From the NCBI RefSeq assembly GCF_008124865.1, contig NZ_VNHY01000001.1:992001-1056000 (forward strand): a DNA stretch of 64,000 bases. The letters run 5' to 3'. This stretch comes from Fodinibius salinus (GTDB lineage Bacteria; Bacteroidota; Rhodothermia; Balneolales; Balneolaceae). The notes below the pieces were generated by a model. It was not told the origin of the DNA and searched no databases. It saw only the letters and a list, made by a program, of their open reading frames with translations. Within the stretch, counting starts at the first letter, position 1. Each line of letters starts with the position of its first letter. Positions 11,031-55,953 of this stretch are shown in pieces. A program made the translations under genes and the position numbers.

Positions 11031-11049
11031 TGAAGCAAGAAGTGATTAT

Positions 11050-11067
11050 GTGATTACGTAATTAAGT
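11050..11067. repeat. Left arm of inverted repeat around a four-helix-bundle gene
   Basis: The arm GTGATTACGTAATTAAGT matches the reverse complement of 11450-11467 at 16 of 18 positions, with one mismatch still a G-U pair in RNA. The wider region 11041-11070 is made of tandem 7-9 nt words (GTGATTAT, GTGATTAC). The arms enclose 11068-11449, which is essentially just the gene at 11087-11440. Confidence 0.8.
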
Positions 11068-11086
11068 GAGAGTAGAACTTTTATTA

Positions 11087-11440
11087 TCAATTCTTAGATT
11101 TGACATGATGATATAATCCTGATAGTTGGCTTGATACCTTTGCAATAAGCTCTACCAAATCAGATATGTCTTCTATGTAATTTTGCCGTTTAGATATTAT
11201 AAGCTGTGTTTCTAGTTCGCTAAGCGATCCTTTGGCTATATTTATATGATGAGCAAATTCCGCTTGACTCGTTCTTGCGGCACCTTCTGCCACATTACTA
11301 GGTACGGATATTGCTGAACGTCTCATCTGTGATGTGAGTCCAAACTTCTCTTCGCCAGGAAAATTATCGGTTATTTTATAAATCTCATCGACCAAATCCA
11401 TTGCATTTTTCCAAGCATCCAACTTATAATGTGGTCTCAT
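11087..11440 (-). CDS. Four-helix-bundle protein (S23/IVP, Avd-like; TIGR02436 type)
   Basis: A 117-residue, all-helical protein with the hallmarks of the 23S rRNA intervening-sequence protein family: 'LDAWKNAMDLVDEIY' in helix 1, the signature 'SQMRRSAISVPSNVAEGAAR' after it, then 'IAKGSLSELETQLIIS'. The family is homologous to the Avd accessory protein of diversity-generating retroelements; stand-alone copies have no settled function and probably bind RNA or DNA through basic residues. It is lodged between batB and the HAD gene. Its flanks (11050-11067 and 11450-11467) are inverted repeats and one overlaps the batB stop codon, which suggests that this is an inserted cassette. Confidence 0.88.
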   Translation of the reverse strand: MRPHYKLDAWKNAMDLVDEIYKITDNFPGEEKFGLTSQMRRSAISVPSNVAEGAARTSQAEFAHHINIAKGSLSELETQLIISKRQNYIEDISDLVELIAKVSSQLSGLYHHVKSKN

Positions 11441-11449
11441 AACAAAATT

Positions 11450-11467
11450 ACTTAATCACCTAATCAC
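11450..11467. repeat. Right arm of inverted repeat, overlapping the batB stop codon
   Basis: The partner of 11050-11067. On the minus strand it reads GTGATTAGGTGATTAAGT and contains the TAG stop of the BatB-like gene (11460-11462) and its last codon region. The word GTGATTA(A/G) repeats with a step of about 8 nt. Arm ends lie 10 nt from the ATG of the four-helix-bundle gene. Confidence 0.8.
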
Positions 11468-12479
11468 GAATTTTAAACTTAGGAAACACCATCCCGAATA
11501 GCATAAAAAGGAGTCCAATTGCCGCCAGCCACTGGTACTGATTTTTATAATCCGCGTACTCTTGACTGGCAAACTCTCCTTGCTGCAGCTCATCGAGCCG
11601 ACCTAAAAACGAATCAATGCCCGAGCCACCGCTGCGAATTTCATAATACTCTCCATTCCCCTCCTCTGCAATTGACCGAAGCACATCGGGCTGTAATTTC
11701 GTAGTCACCACCTCTCCATCTTCGTTACGTTTATATCCCATCAGAGAACCGGAATCACCATAAAGGGGAATCCTGGAACCACTGCTGGTACCAATACCCA
11801 AGGTATAAATTGAAACATTTTGATCCCGAAGTTGCTGCAGGGCACTGCTATAAGATTCACCATGATTCTCTCCATCCGAAATAATCAGCATCACCTTTGC
11901 AGCATTACCCCCCTTATCCTCTTTTATAGACCCAAAAGCTTCGGAAGCCGTTTCCATGGCAGCACTGAAATCAGTAGATGAAGAAGGCATTTGTTTAGTC
12001 TCGGCAATATTCAAAAACAGCCGAAGGGCCGAATAATCGAGTGTCATTGGTGCTTGTAAGTACGCTTCACCGGTAAATACAACCAGCCCCACCCGGTCTC
12101 CATCCAGCCGTTCAATGAGCCTGGTTACTTCGTACTTTGCTTTTTCGAGCCGACTTGGCTTTACATCTTCGGCATTCATGCTGGCGGAAAGATCAAGCGC
12201 CACAAGCAGGTCCACGCCCTGCCGCTTCACCTCTCGTACCTCGGTACCCAGCTTCGGGCCCGCTGCCGCAATAATAAGCAATCCAATGCCAATATAGATT
12301 GCAATGTGTTTAATGCCTTTGCCCAATGGCCAGAATCCCGACCGCAACCGTTCAAAAAGATCAGAGCCAAAGAAAGAAATGCGTTTTTCATTAAGCTGTT
12401 TATTATACCACCAGCTTGCTGCTATCAATAACGGAATAAGCAAAAGAAACCATAAATACAGACCATCTTGCCAAATCAT
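11460..12479 (-). CDS. batB: BatB-like VWA-domain membrane protein
   Basis: A 339-residue protein with two N-terminal membrane helices (about 7-25 and 58-77), a von Willebrand A domain (about 88-300) and a C-terminal helix (about 315-333). The MIDAS is complete: 'DLSASMN' (DxSxS), the Thr in 'SSSTDFS' and the Asp in 'IISDGENHGE'. This is the order of Bat/aerotolerance proteins BatA and BatB, thought to form envelope complexes in stress tolerance. Unlike usual bat operons no batA, batC or MoxR ATPase gene adjoins it. Its last codons and stop lie in the inverted-repeat arm of the next gene. Confidence 0.82.
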   Translation of the reverse strand: MIWQDGLYLWFLLLIPLLIAASWWYNKQLNEKRISFFGSDLFERLRSGFWPLGKGIKHIAIYIGIGLLIIAAAGPKLGTEVREVKRQGVDLLVALDLSASMNAEDVKPSRLEKAKYEVTRLIERLDGDRVGLVVFTGEAYLQAPMTLDYSALRLFLNIAETKQMPSSSTDFSAAMETASEAFGSIKEDKGGNAAKVMLIISDGENHGESYSSALQQLRDQNVSIYTLGIGTSSGSRIPLYGDSGSLMGYKRNEDGEVVTTKLQPDVLRSIAEEGNGEYYEIRSGGSGIDSFLGRLDELQQGEFASQEYADYKNQYQWLAAIGLLFMLFGMVFPKFKIRD

Positions 12480-39153: not shown

Positions 39154-39163
39154 TACAGTAATT

Positions 39164-39222
39164 ACAAATTGAGAATTGTGAATTAGGAATTATTCCTAAT
39201 TCTTAATTGAAAATTGAAAATT
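39164..39222. repeat. Heptad-word palindrome in the cysD-cysN spacer, without ORF
   Basis: The core is a perfect inverted repeat, GAATTAGGAAT (39180-39190) against ATTCCTAATTC (39192-39202). Both sides extend as 7-nt words (AATTGAG, AATTGTG; AAAATTG, AAAATTC). It begins within about 6 bp of the cysD stop and would form a long hairpin in the cysDN mRNA. Confidence 0.8.
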
Positions 39223-40332: not shown

Positions 40333-40866
40333 TTAACTTCTGTTTCTTAAATACTCCAGAACCATTTGTACGCCCTCTTCAGGAGTGATATCGGTAGTAT
40401 CAATTTCCAACTCTGGGTCTTCTGGTTCTTCGTAAGGGTCGCTGATGCCGGTAAAATTATCAATTTCCCCTTTTCGGGCTTGCTCATATAGTCCTTTTAC
40501 ATCGCGCTGTTCGCAGACTTCCAGCGGCGTTGAAATATGTATTTCGGTAAAATCTTCACACATATTGCGTACAAAATCACGTGCATCCTGATACGGAGAA
40601 ATAAATGAAGCCACAACAAAAACACCATGCTTTTGCAGTAAGCTGGCAACAAAGCCTACGCGCTTAATATGGCTATCGCGCTCTTCTTTTGAAAAACCGG
40701 TAGTGGGAAATACTTCCCGAACGGCATCCCCGTCAAGATGTTCTACTTTGTATCCCCGATCTTTTAGCTGGGCATATACTTTTTCTGAAATGGTACTTTT
40801 CCCTGACCCGGAAAGCCCGGTAAACCATAGGACGGTGGGCTTGAGGGCACTTTCGTTATTTTTCAT
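40333..40866 (-). CDS. cysC: Adenylylsulfate kinase (CysC)
   Basis: A 177-residue P-loop kinase: 'LWFTGLSGSGKSTISEKVY' (Walker A), 'HLDGDAVREVFPTTGFSKEER' and 'FVVASFISPYQDARDFVRNM', with 'IHISTPLEVCEQRDVKGLYEQARKG'-type lid residues split over residues 125-150. It phosphorylates APS to PAPS, the sulfate donor of the sulfotransferases at 26.1-32.9 kb. It is a stand-alone enzyme. The four-helix-bundle gene at 40942-41295 separates it from cysQ. Confidence 0.93.
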   Translation of the reverse strand: MKNNESALKPTVLWFTGLSGSGKSTISEKVYAQLKDRGYKVEHLDGDAVREVFPTTGFSKEERDSHIKRVGFVASLLQKHGVFVVASFISPYQDARDFVRNMCEDFTEIHISTPLEVCEQRDVKGLYEQARKGEIDNFTGISDPYEEPEDPELEIDTTDITPEEGVQMVLEYLRNRS

Positions 40867-40920
40867 AAAACATTTTTTTAATTCTAATCGATTAACGTAT
40901 CAATAATTATCAATATTAAA

Positions 40921-40943
40921 TTTTGAATGCTGAATGTTGAATT
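40921..40943. repeat. Left arm of inverted repeat around the second four-helix-bundle gene
   Basis: Words TTGAATGC, TGAATGT and TGAATT in tandem. It matches the reverse complement of 41381-41403 at 20 of 23 positions. It reaches into the stop codon of the gene it encloses (TAA at 40942-40944). Confidence 0.8.
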
Positions 40944-41295
40944 ACCTTAAGCTCTTTTGCGAAGTCTTAACAATAGCAGACAATATATTGACAATCTCAT
41001 TTATTTCATTCAAATAAAAGTCTGCATCAAAATCTAACAAGTCGCTATGTTTTAGCAATCGCAGCCAATACTTAGTCTCCCGAGCCTCTTTTGATGCAAT
41101 GGACATCTTTGCAATAAAATCCCGTTTGGATTGAGCTGCTCCAGCTTCCTCTACATTAGCTCCAATACTGGTTCCACTCTTTAGTATCTGTCTTGAGATT
41201 ACATATTCATTTTTCTTAACAAGTTTTTTGTTCAGGATGATTATTTTGAGTGCAAAATTGAAACTCTTGGTTTTTATAATATTTTTCTTACTCAT
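40942..41295 (-). CDS. Four-helix-bundle protein (S23/IVP, Avd-like), second copy
   Basis: A 117-residue, lysine-rich helical protein of the same family as the one at 11087-11440 but only distantly similar: 'SFNFALKIIILNKKLV' in helix 1, the signature 'SRQILKSGTSIGANVEEAGA', then 'DFIAKMSIASKEARETKYWL' and 'EINEIVNILSAIVKTS'. It probably forms a basic oligomer that binds nucleic acid. It interrupts the cysQ-cysC run. An 85-bp leader separates its ATG from the right arm of the enclosing repeat. Confidence 0.88.
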   Translation of the reverse strand: MSKKNIIKTKSFNFALKIIILNKKLVKKNEYVISRQILKSGTSIGANVEEAGAAQSKRDFIAKMSIASKEARETKYWLRLLKHSDLLDFDADFYLNEINEIVNILSAIVKTSQKSLR

Positions 41296-41380
41296 GATTA
41301 TTGAATTGAGTCAAGGGTTAATAGTAAGACCTCAGAATCAATTCAACCTTACAAAAGAACTACTAAATTCAGTCTTTGCT

Positions 41381-41424
41381 AATTCAACATCCAACATTCA
41401 ATACTCAAAATTCAACATTCTCTT
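41381..41424. repeat. Right arm of inverted repeat, overlapping the cysQ 3' end
   Basis: Words such as TTCAACATC, CAACATT and CAAAATT step by about 7 nt. Positions 41381-41403 pair with 40921-40943; the rest runs through the cysQ stop (41405-41407) into its last codons. Confidence 0.8.
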
Positions 41425-42169
41425 CTAATCCAATAAGAAAGCTACCGTTTTTAAGATCCGGCTTATTGTAAGTTAAAGGCGACGAATGTGCACCATCACG
41501 CGCCGAATAACGGTAGACACAATCTCCTGCAGCCACGTCCCATTCCATAGTCGGTCCCATTCGGGGATAGATATCCGCTTTACCCTCAGCTACCAGACAA
41601 AACTTAAGCGAACTGCCCGCCGGTATCGTCTTATCGATTTCAATTCCTTTATCGGCAAGCTGCTCAACCAGTTCATCAGAACCGTGAGAACGACTTTGAA
41701 CAGCTACAGAGGGATTATCCGTAGTCTCAGAGAAAATTCTCCGGGGCGCATTATCTGCTTCCTGTTTAAATGCCCCCTCTTCTTTAGTAGCATAATAGCT
41801 AACATCCTTATCGGGCACATAAACAACCCCCATCACCGGAACGCCTTGGTCAACAAGGGCAATATTTACCGTAAACTCTCCATTTTTCTTGATAAATTCT
41901 TTGGTACCGTCCAGTGGATCTACAATCCAGAATTTTGCCCAATCTTTTCGTTCCTCATAGTCAGGGATACCTGATTCTTCAGAAATTACGGGGGTATCCG
42001 GGTCAATTTCTTGAAGCGCATCAATAATAATATGATGCGACGCCAGATCTGCCTTTGTCAACGGGGAGTCATCATCTTTGCGAGTGATTTTGATATCCTG
42101 CACATCATTATAAATCTCCAGCATAGCATCGCCGGCCTCTTTTGCTGTTGTAATAACTTCTTTGAGCAT
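41405..42169 (-). CDS. cysQ: 3'(2'),5'-bisphosphate nucleotidase (CysQ)
   Basis: A 254-residue inositol-monophosphatase-fold enzyme. Metal and catalytic motifs are all present: 'KDDDSPLTKADLASH', 'ISEESGIPDYEE', 'WIVDPLDGTKEFIKKNGEF' and 'TMEWDVAAGDCV'. It hydrolyses PAP, the by-product of PAPS-dependent sulfation, and so removes the inhibitor of sulfotransferases. It is downstream of the SLC13 permease and upstream of the inserted four-helix-bundle gene. The C-terminal codons and stop form part of the repeat arm. Confidence 0.93.
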   Translation of the reverse strand: MLKEVITTAKEAGDAMLEIYNDVQDIKITRKDDDSPLTKADLASHHIIIDALQEIDPDTPVISEESGIPDYEERKDWAKFWIVDPLDGTKEFIKKNGEFTVNIALVDQGVPVMGVVYVPDKDVSYYATKEEGAFKQEADNAPRRIFSETTDNPSVAVQSRSHGSDELVEQLADKGIEIDKTIPAGSSLKFCLVAEGKADIYPRMGPTMEWDVAAGDCVYRYSARDGAHSSPLTYNKPDLKNGSFLIGLEENVEF

Positions 42170-48154: not shown

Positions 48155-48925
48155 ATGAAACTTTACGTCTGTATAAAACAAGTCCCGGATGTGGATGCTC
48201 CCATCCAAATAAAAAATGGTACGCTCATCCAAGATACCGACCGCATGGTGCTAAATGCCTATGACGCTTCGGCCGTAGAAGAAGCACTGGTGCTGACTGA
48301 AGAGCACGAAGGCGAAGTGGAAGTAGTGATGGTTGGACCCGAGGGATCCAAAGAAACTATCCGCAAGGCACTGGCCATGGGAGCTGACAAAGCAACTCAT
48401 ATTCAAACCGATGGCGATGTAGATTACAATTCTGCAACCTATGCCAAAATTCTAGCCACCTTTTTTGAGGACAAGGAATATGATATTATCGCTTGCGGAA
48501 AACAGTCACAGGATACTGATGCGGGACTGGCCGGAAGCATGATGGCTGAACATCTTAATCTCCCCTACGCAACAAATGCTGTGGGCTTGAGTATCGAAGA
48601 TAGTAACCTGATTGTAAAACGTCAGGGCGATGCTGGACAGGAAATAATTGAACTCCCCTCCTCTTGTTTGGTAACATGCTCTAATGATATGAATGAGCCG
48701 CGTATACCCAGCCTCAAAGGTATTATGAAATCCAAGAAAAAGCCGATGGAAACAGTTGAGCTTTCTGATCTGGATATTGCTGAGGAAGATATAAAACCCA
48801 ACACAAAAGTAACCGGTCACATGGAAAAGCCAGAGCGCGAACCGGGACAGAAATTTGAGGGCGATCCCGAAGAGCTGGCACAAAAAGTAGCTAATCTCCT
48901 CGATGAAGAGGCAAATGTCATTTAA
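48155..48925 (+). CDS. etfB: Electron transfer flavoprotein beta subunit (EtfB/FixA)
   Basis: A 256-residue ETF-beta: 'MKLYVCIKQVPDVDAPIQIK', 'NAYDASAVEEAL', 'VMVGPEGSKETIRKALAMGA' and 'ACGKQSQDTDAGLAGSMMAE' (AMP/FAD site). It is the first of etfB-etfA-fixC-fixX, the order of fixABCX operons. With EtfA it takes electrons from dehydrogenases; the pair may feed the FixCX quinone reductase. An ORF-less palindrome starts directly at its stop codon. Confidence 0.93.
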   Translation: MKLYVCIKQVPDVDAPIQIKNGTLIQDTDRMVLNAYDASAVEEALVLTEEHEGEVEVVMVGPEGSKETIRKALAMGADKATHIQTDGDVDYNSATYAKILATFFEDKEYDIIACGKQSQDTDAGLAGSMMAEHLNLPYATNAVGLSIEDSNLIVKRQGDAGQEIIELPSSCLVTCSNDMNEPRIPSLKGIMKSKKKPMETVELSDLDIAEEDIKPNTKVTGHMEKPEREPGQKFEGDPEELAQKVANLLDEEANVI

Positions 48926-48980
48926 TGAGTAACGAGTAAAGGTAATGAGTAAAATGGTACTCGTTACTCATCACTCGTTC
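48924..48980. repeat. Heptad-word palindrome in the etfB-etfA spacer, without ORF
   Basis: ATGAGTAACGAGTA (48925-48938) and its exact complement (48958-48971) form a 14-bp stem. Both sides are tandem 7-nt words (AATGAGT, AACGAGT; ACTCGTT, ACTCATC). It begins inside the etfB stop codon. Confidence 0.85.
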
Positions 48981-54979: not shown

Positions 54980-55435
54980 GTTTATTTCCACTAGAGACAC
55001 CAAGATGGAAGGGCTTAAGCGCCTGATCGCCCGCAGATCCTGAACGTGTTCTGCTGAGCCTGTTACAGTCTCTCCCACATTTTATGGCTGGTGCCTTTAA
55101 CATGTTATGTCCATTTTTTGTCAGCAAAAAATAGACGAAAAAACTGCTGGGGGAATCGTATATTTTGTACTTATTAAAATACTTATTCAGAAGATTGCTT
55201 TGTCTCGGTAGTTGCTTTTTATAAGATGTTTCCCGCGATTCACCCCAAATCCCGTTCGGATAGGTAAACCTAAAAACCATAACCAACATTGTTTTACCAC
55301 CAAGGCACTTCATTTTCTTGCAATATAATTCATAGATCCTGAAACAAGTTCAGGATGACATGTTGCTGCTATACCATTATTGACCTTTTCTTCTATTTTA
55401 TTCTGTTTCACTATTGCAAGGTTCTTTTCGCGTAA
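54980..55435. other. 456-bp spacer after the acyl-CoA dehydrogenases
   Basis: No gene. Contains the hairpin unit at 55335-55360. A CACCAAGGCACTTC-type stretch near 55302 resembles short-word arrays elsewhere. The rest shows nothing I can assign. Confidence 0.5.
55335..55360 (+). repeat. REP-like hairpin, forward, left of the GIY-YIG gene
   Basis: A 26-nt unit with stem TCCTGAA-ACAAG-TTCAGGA followed by TGACA. Its exact reverse complement is at 55802-55827. Confidence 0.92.
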
Positions 55436-55738
55436 TTATGAGTCCCATAAATTTTCTAATGTTGGATTTTCGCTTTTTATCAAGTTTAGCTTCCACTCTC
55501 GGTGCCAATTCTTTAGCTGCTTTTCTCGCTCAATGGCTTCGTTAATATTGGGATATTTCTCATAGTACAGAAGAATATTCACATTATATTTAGCTGTAAA
55601 TTTTGCCCCTTCCCCATAGACATGGTCAAAAATACGCTTATCTAAGACGGCGGTAACGCCAATATATAATGTGCTTTTAGTTTTGTTTGACAAAATATAG
55701 ACAAACCCATTTTTACCCGATGAACTTTTATATCCCAT
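55436..55738 (-). CDS. GIY-YIG nuclease-domain protein (UPF0213/YhbQ-like)
   Basis: A 100-residue single-domain protein: 'GFVYILSNKTKSTLYIGVT' (GIY...YIG strands), the Arg in 'LDKRIFDHVYGEG', and 'EAIEREKQLKNWHREWKLNL' with the catalytic Glu helix. All catalytic elements of the fold are visible, with no added DNA-binding domain. Relatives are structure- or site-specific endonucleases of unsettled role. It is transcribed alone. Perfect 26-nt inverted hairpin repeats lie about 75 bp and 63 bp from its ends. Confidence 0.9.
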   Translation of the reverse strand: MGYKSSSGKNGFVYILSNKTKSTLYIGVTAVLDKRIFDHVYGEGAKFTAKYNVNILLYYEKYPNINEAIEREKQLKNWHREWKLNLIKSENPTLENLWDS

Positions 55739-55801
55739 TTTGAACTATCTTTTTAATAATAAGACCATCAGGGAAGCTGATCCTTACATATTAAAATCCT
55801 A

Positions 55802-55827
55802 TGTCATCCTGAACTTGTTTCAGGATC
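55802..55827 (-). repeat. REP-like hairpin, reverse, right of the GIY-YIG gene
   Basis: Exact 26/26 reverse complement of 55335-55360. The pair encloses the GIY-YIG gene with both TGACA ends pointing toward it. Confidence 0.92.
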
Positions 55828-55953
55828 TCAAGAAAAGAGCCCCAGATAATAATAAAAGACTATTAGAAAGATCCTCCCTGCTTATACTTGTTTACTATAC
55901 TTATCCCCGGATAGGTACCCTCTGGAAGATTACTTTGTACAAAACGCTAAATT

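Follow-up and report, generated by a model that had tools for sequence, protein, structure and literature searches.

The window analyzed here, a 64,000-nucleotide stretch of the Fodinibius salinus genome, carries between cysQ and cysC a compact element in which a single S23/IVP gene is bounded by inverted arrays of a lineage-specific heptamer and located where the coding sequence of a host gene ends (3′). By sequence comparison, copies at different sites have gene and arms in common, and the same word also forms hairpins lacking a gene elsewhere in the genome. We regard the cysQ-cysC element as probably a member of a family of very small mobile elements that is widespread; the complete explanation, in which the protein would also recognize its own word and movement would be linked to natural transformation, we put at an even chance. 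Genes annotated in databases as "four helix bundle protein" have had no known role, and the heptamer repeats of bacteria, although familiar for decades, have lacked an owner. Brought together, they give a family of mobile DNA that can be tested and whose ends are of a new type: in place of a fixed sequence, a seven-letter word, different from lineage to lineage, is repeated as an array. If the protein does read its own word, it would be a small nucleic-acid binder with a readily changing specificity, and if movement does follow DNA uptake, the element would be exploiting transformation.

The product of the gene between the arms is a member of the S23 family, matching PF05635 (E 5.6e-24; 84.8 bits against a curated cut-off of 33.8) and TIGR02436 (97.6 bits against a curated cut-off of 24), and the sole solved chain found was PDB 2rld (E 1.9e-25), an entry with five such chains. 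This gene is the only ORF of at least 90 aa between the arms, and the element contains no gene for a recombinase, nuclease, or reverse transcriptase. The arms pair over 40 nt at 78% complementarity, and Tandem Repeats Finder reported a period of 7 in both, counting 5.6 copies in 41382-41420 and 2.7 in 40924-40942. The last codons and the stop of cysQ are contained in the first heptads of the 5′ arm, and the promoter-like motif is placed between this arm and the start codon of the IVP gene (Table 1). Host genes (cysQ, cysD, cysN, nadK, mdh, etc.) are named here after family matches or the look of the protein.

An earlier note on this DNA had matched positions 40921-40943 with 41381-41403 at 20 of 23, which we reproduced, and the layout it described, with arms around a TIGR02436 gene reaching the cysQ stop, was confirmed by coordinates and family matches. 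Its assignment of both window proteins to one family held by HMM; BLASTP, however, gave no alignment between the two at E <= 100. The promoter-like motif and the two gene-less heptad hairpins in Table 1 are features beyond those it had described.

Table 1. Features of the cysQ-cysC element, and further elements and hairpins of the window (positions are those of the window).
Feature	Position	Strand	Remarks
IVP/S23 four-helix-bundle gene, 117 aa	40942-41295	-	PF05635, TIGR02436, and PDB 2rld matches
5′ arm (gene-relative), heptad array TTGAATT TTGAGTA TTGAATG TTGGATG TTGAATT	41380-41419	-	
3′ arm (gene-relative), heptad array in inverted copy	40905-40944	-	
Promoter-like motif TGTAAGGT-N14-GGTCTTACT	41323-41353	-	One mismatch from the genome-wide motif preceding competence-type genes
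Upstream gene cysQ (Inositol_P family)	41405-42169	-	Stop codon within arm
Downstream gene cysC (APS kinase)	40333-40866	-	Family match
Element 1, IVP gene	11087-11440	-	Arms ~11040-11069 and 11447-11468, word GTGATTA
Gene-less heptad hairpin, word AATTAGG/AATTAAG	39160-39222		Junction of PAPS_reduct (cysD) and GTP_EFTU (cysN)
Gene-less heptad hairpin, TAATGAG ... TACTCGT	48923-48979		Detected with Tandem Repeats Finder; overlaps the stop codon of ORF 48155-48925

Taken alone, the pairing of the cysQ-cysC arms is just moderately rare: when the same geometry was drawn 19,011 times from the window, 68 draws attained its arm score of 22. The case for arms beyond chance comes from the survey of the genus, where 50 of 79 copies exceeded the control 99th percentile of flank complementarity (8291 draws) and about one was expected. 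The same percentile was passed by 52 of 68 copies in a phylum sample (6708 draws) and 30 of 71 loci from many phyla (8755 draws), which includes Sulfuricella (~ten GGGTGAT units) and Lysobacter (GGGAATG/GGGAATC), leaving 29, 16, and 41 copies, respectively, below the arm threshold. Elements whose own arms paired above the 99th percentile of pairs mixed from different elements numbered 25 of 79, 25 of 68, and 18 of 71. Flanks of 300 nt upstream were scored against 220 nt downstream (280 and 200 in the many-phyla set), with controls from the same loci. The genus search gave 82 rows, which became 79 tested copies after the removal of two second halves of broken copies and one further row, and later genus analyses used 78 copies, excluding a DGR-like Avd (L073). 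The phylum sample comprised 68 loci among the strong matches listed, 40 of them hand-picked for spread; the many-phyla set was found with the element 1 protein, with 4 of 75 rows dropped for short flanks and one of its 76 loci (L274) absent.

Elements with an arm score past 15–17, depending on the analysis, were used to study periodicity, stop position, reading frames, and the link between word and protein. In 93 arm pairs, the identity at lag 7 was 0.505 in the 5′ arms and 0.502 in the 3′ arms, while other lags from 2 to 15 gave 0.24–0.33, except lag 14 (0.48 and 0.47), and gene bodies gave 0.286 at lag 7. Heptad arrays in direct orientation flank L052 (G002:C13:19393), L058 (G005:C37:179361), and also L252 by eye, the words of such arrays reading ACCCGCA and CAAGGTT. 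Among the 150 elements with an arm score of at least 16, a stop codon closing an open frame of 100 codons or more lay within -40 to +45 nt of the 5′ arm's outer edge in 104, and of either edge in 130; random positions in the same loci gave 295 and 545 of 3103 for these two measures, a single position being compared with the two edges of an element. As 104 of 150 compares with 295 of 3103, closeness of the arm to an upstream stop codon is a general feature, and among elements that have a stop there at the 5′ arm, the three sets gave median offsets of -1, +3, and +1 nt. The refuting test named in the earlier note was run around PF05635/TIGR02436 genes, using random positions and draws of the same geometry in place of size-matched genes, and did not go against it: inverted repeats in the flanks and closeness to the upstream stop were both strongly enriched. 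A further idea, that a stop-bearing word closes all three frames given that 7 = 1 mod 3, proved weak: all frames were closed outside-in in 53 of 106 arms in the genus and 51 of 100 in the phylum sample (inside-out, 34 of 106 and 34 of 100), and the genus stop density outside-in barely rose above mononucleotide shuffles (0.098 vs. 0.090), with a larger enrichment inside-out (0.074 vs. 0.056).

The word follows the lineage of the protein from site to site. Among 57 armed elements of the genus, similar arms were seen in 11 of 15 non-orthologous pairs whose proteins are at least 70% identical, in 1 of 9 such pairs at 60–70%, and in practically none of 1510 pairs below 60% (~1% of 560 pairs at 30–40%). 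The 11 word-sharing pairs derive from about four groups, five of these pairs from L014/L015/L027/L044, perhaps one rearranged locus, and L051/L052 also look like a single site. The link is plainest for type C, where the element occupies cysD-cysN in G001, G004, and G006 and cysQ-cysC in G002, with proteins 83–87% identical and a common word; in G002, the array apparently stands in place of the last codons of cysQ and provides its stop. The earlier statement that only the design is shared between elements holds for unrelated copies, but the words are not arbitrary. Given this link across sites, recognition of a word array fits better than recognition of a generic stem, and the mismatch pattern of the arms and the direct-orientation arrays at L052 and L058 (by eye) lend little weight to a stem as such. 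We also considered a host-derived word, as the cysQ word resembles, by eye, the cysQ ends of gene-free species, and dropped it as a general rule because the words go with the protein.

Comparison of 12 congeners by eye revealed turnover at the same junctions. At cysQ-cysC, the type seen in the window is intact in G000 (the genome of the window) and G006, broken in G009, and left as mere scars in G003 and G007; a second type lies behind remnants of the first-type 5′ arm in G001, G005, and G011 (nested or replacing), a third type is found in G002, and the gene is absent in G004, G008, and G010. At cysD-cysN, where the window has the hairpin 39160-39222, an IVP element is present in G001, G004, G005, and G006 (type C in three of them and a fourth type in G005), gene-less AATTAGG hairpins in G000, G002, and G007, degenerate ones in G009 and G010, a hairpin with another word in G003, a possible one in G011, and none in G008. 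AATTAGG is also the word of IVP elements at a junction occupied in 8 of 12 species. At nadK-mdh, the gene is found just in G000, with gene-less hairpins of several words in G001, G005, G007, G009, G010, and G011, long arrays in G002 and G006, nothing in G003 and G008, and a rearrangement in G004.

Similar differences were noted, again by eye, in a sister genus. At one junction with flanks ~90% identical, the element in G110 differs from that in G037, G049, and G065; at a second, four species have one element, G049 has another (flank identity ~90%), and G076 is empty, with the stop followed by 3 nt and a start codon; at a third, the gene is present in three species, a small hairpin-like stretch in two, and nothing clear in one. 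No target-site duplication was seen at the site with the empty allele, where the flanks are just ~77% identical. Inverted ends and presence or absence between relatives, as in insertion sequences and MITEs, are both present. Many copies are old and vertically inherited, with one junction occupied in 8 of 12 species, and the IVP protein is under purifying selection, with a dN/dS of 0–0.17 in 26 of 27 defined pairs (33 pairs, 7 sites) and 0.28 at a dS of 0.014 in the remaining pair. Compensatory evolution of the arms was tried and rejected, as the initial result (34 vs. 17, p 0.0025) mixed different element types at one junction. When an element's own arms were compared with pairing to the arm of a homologous copy at the same junction, the excess was weak (p 0.07 for all, 0.013 for intact copies), became p 0.43 and 0.11, respectively, with a 50% identity cut, and was not significant among close relatives (14 vs. 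12, p 0.13).

Gene-less heptad hairpins are few in the window's own genome. An ungapped search of 464 kb found 60 hairpins with arms of at least 18 nt, of which 7 had a lag-7 identity of at least 0.5 (0 of 30 in block-shuffled sequence); about four of these are heptad hairpins by eye, one of them in the window. In a Lysobacter genome (that of L200), (GGGAATN)3 gave 259 matches, including overlapping ones, and the reversed control gave 0. Among 100 places listed, we noted 44 arrays, in which 13 of 13 close pairs are convergent; one pair spans 450 bp, its coordinates coinciding with an S23 gene on what we infer to be the same contig, and the other 12 span 76–272 bp, without room for the gene. 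One array pair examined in full begins behind an apparent stop codon. We read gene-less hairpins as MITE-like offspring of the elements.

Similar heptad arrays have been described before. According to the main text of PMC4692102, arrays of GGGAATC in Xanthomonas and GGGGA(C/T)T in Nostoc form 70 and 75 convergent inverted pairs, are mostly near stop codons, with some overlapping them, and are generally unassociated with mobile elements; S23 has 0 occurrences in that main text. The Lysobacter S23 gene of L200 lies between arrays of the same word as in Xanthomonas, with convergent pairs matching the published pattern, and, like the Nostoc repeats, the arrays around the S23 gene of L277 are of similar G-rich heptads (TAGGGAG/TGGGGAG). 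This L277 gene, on the Nostoc edaphicum plasmid pNe_5, is antisense between two ribonucleotide reductase subunit genes, and its TAGGGAG arms are near-perfect. The Beggiatoaceae heptamer TAACTGA also forms intergenic arrays, including in cyanobacteria and five Bacteroidetes; unlike those of IVP elements, these are direct repeats upstream of start codons, with one indirect repeat reported, and S23 goes unmentioned in the main text (PMC4679880). Across open-access PMC full texts, we found no tie of S23/IVP genes to heptad arrays, which is weak evidence of absence, subscription papers and preprints lying mostly outside that collection.

The nearest described relative of the heptad-armed IVP elements is the 23S rRNA IVS, which has the same protein family and a gene between complementary ends, and whose scattered distribution is taken, in passages of PMC4990558, as a sign of horizontal transfer. 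In contrast to it, the cysQ-cysC element is outside rRNA, and IVP elements sit in protein-coding operons, have variable-heptamer arms, occur in several copies per genome, include antisense placements, and in some cases carry their own promoter. REP/REPIN sequences with their RAYT (Y1) gene are small hairpins near gene ends with one linked gene and many gene-less copies. The IVP family likewise combines hairpins near gene ends, one linked gene, and gene-less copies, but PF01797 had 0 matches in G000 at E <= 0.001, and the IVP word differs from lineage to lineage. Avd of diversity-generating retroelements is, as passages of PMC10053308 have it, a homologous protein by sequence and structure, yet no reverse transcriptase is near the cysQ-cysC element, and the single RVT_1 match in G000 lies on a different contig (G000:C2:799682). 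At a separate locus (L073; G009:C5:252200-258200), a distant family member stands beside RVT_1 with VR/TR-like near-repeats by eye, which is a probable diversity-generating retroelement.

The motif upstream of the IVP gene is found genome-wide. Its consensus, TGTAAGGA-N13-17-GGTCWTACT, had 88 exact matches in the 12 congeners (86 with N14 and 2 with N15) and 0 in the reversed control, and 7 of the 88 are directly before an IVP gene by coordinates. Allowing up to 3.5 mismatches, it precedes 30 of 78 IVP genes in the genus (0 of 78 on the reversed strand) and 7 of 68 in the phylum sample (0 reversed), being absent from 48 and 61 copies, respectively. The first long frames behind it at 30 of the 88 loci, identified in part by HMM and otherwise by eye, include RecA (163 nt away), ComEC, ComEA (2), ComF, YifB/ComM (2), RecN (2, >200 nt away), an integron integrase (TIGR02249, 433.8 bits), and four short integrase-like N-terminal proteins, along with GIY-YIG, DUF559, five IVP genes, and others without an uptake or recombination role; the matches to the NCBIfam equivalog models for ComEC/Rec2, comE, comF, and recN fell short of the curated cut-offs. 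Of 8 further genomes examined, the 6 from the sister genus had 69 matches (the other two, from other genera, had none), 15 of them before IVP genes by coordinates, and 30 loci included RadC (3), SSB, GIY-YIG (6), DUF559 (3), and Y1-like genes (4); of the three Y1-like genes scanned, two match PF01797 and one has no Pfam match. Presumably, the motif is an ECF-type competence promoter. An RNA-leader hairpin formed by GTAAG ... CTTAC was rejected, as the pair varies by eye without compensation; its genome-wide occurrence with nearly fixed spacing is why we read it as a promoter. A search of Rfam at E up to 1 in 20 loci gave a tmRNA in L033 as its sole match, and copies with the promoter showed no association with an upstream gene end in sense orientation (Fisher p 0.13).

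On the mobile-element explanation, a ring-shaped IVP protein (relatives have been solved as pentamers) may recognize the array of its own word, most likely as folded single-stranded DNA, a step that we hold to be plausible yet somewhat short of an even chance. The protein would then help the element or its gene-less copies to enter new gene ends by way of host replication or recombination. Movement would take place as single-stranded DNA, perhaps during DNA uptake, and since part of the copies in this genus and the sister genus share a promoter with DNA-uptake and recombination genes, natural transformation would be the likeliest occasion, although we propose this link tentatively and with the balance of probability against it. 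A helper acting in trans, sought elsewhere in the genomes as PF01797 and PF00078, is not indicated by the distribution of either: RVT_1 is missing from 4 and the Y1 transposase from 6 of the 12 congeners, all of which have an IVP gene. Phage records gave no match to the element 1 protein at E 1e-3.

Three alternative explanations were considered. The arms might act in RNA as those of the 23S rRNA IVS, folding the insert from the host transcript while RNase III or insulation spares the operon and the protein binds its own RNA. The same gene family and stem-bounded layout as in rRNA IVSs (as far as PMC4990558 sets them out) speak for such an element, as does the adjoining gene end, which is sense-only in 70 of 150 elements and antisense-only in 26. 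Antisense placements nevertheless occur, and the direct-orientation arrays at L052 and L058 (by eye) also speak against it. A sense RNA stem should, moreover, tolerate G-U pairs, yet the arm mismatches comprise 152 of the G-U type and 186 of the A-C type (p 0.07 opposite to a G-U excess), or 98 and 133 in the best-paired 58 elements (p 0.025, again opposite), so that an RNA stem gains no support, and we find this explanation unlikely.

It is also conceivable, albeit improbable, that the primary feature is a host hairpin at the gene end, acting in transcript stability or as a transcript 3′ end, and that the gene is a passenger entering its loop. Gene-less heptad hairpins do stand behind stops at junctions that have the gene in relatives (by eye), convergent pairs without room for the gene outnumber those with it by 12 to 1 among the places listed in the one Lysobacter genome, and the Xanthomonas arrays adjoin stop codons in the account of PMC4692102; independent entry into resident hairpins, however, would not be expected to make the word go with the protein lineage between sites. 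Very unlikely, in our estimation, is a mutational by-product in which slippage makes the arrays, template switching keeps the arms complementary, and the protein is irrelevant. At site S7, the array has expanded in a comparison of G049 with G065 without change in the other arm, both arms have apparently changed jointly at S4, the mismatches lack a G-U bias, and homogenization of arms by template switching is described in PMC8604942, all of which suit such a process. It fails, though, to explain one gene family between such arms in several phyla, and copies with a broken gene have lower arm scores than intact ones (median 15.0, n = 17, vs. 18.5, n = 61; p 0.003), a difference that may stem from arm sequence missing in partial copies, the broken class (17 of 78) having been assigned by hand from stops and partial matches.

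The mobile-element explanation can be extended to a guild of single-gene, hairpin-ended elements timed to natural transformation. In this rather doubtful proposal, the S23/IVP pentamer would read its own word as folded single-stranded DNA and assist the element in settling at gene ends during active DNA uptake, GIY-YIG, DUF559, and Y1 genes with the same promoter, many of them flanked by REP-like palindromes, would be further members, the heptanucleotide repeats of Xanthomonas, Nostoc, Calothrix, and other bacteria would largely be non-autonomous IVP offspring, and rRNA IVSs would be IVP elements that landed in rRNA. Among 34 hand-chosen genes without a control set of their own, and with a score of at least 18 set by hand, inverted palindromes enclose 5 of 8 GIY-YIG, 2 of 4 DUF559, and 3 of 4 Y1-like small genes bearing the promoter, compared with 4 of 7 IVP genes, 1 of 7 com/rec-type genes (a radC scoring 21), and none of the 4 short integrase-like genes. 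The palindrome-flanked GIY-YIG, DUF559, and Y1-like genes under one motif in the sister genus resemble a guild of small selfish genes.

Single genes flanked by palindromes in the sister genus were noted at L349, L352, L354, L357, L360, L362, L364, L370, and L371. The window itself has one at 55329-55834(-), where a GIY-YIG gene (55436-55738) has the same promoter motif at 55758-55788 with one mismatch and is flanked by inverted REP-like palindromes, GATCCTGAAACAAGTTCAGGATGACAT, at ~55801-55834 and 55329-55361 (arm score 28.5). Behind the promoter motif at L081 (G006:C1:742528-745558) lies a full-length integron integrase, and in other congeners the same motif precedes a 112–117 aa protein resembling the N-terminal part of this integrase (L078, L080, L086, and L097).
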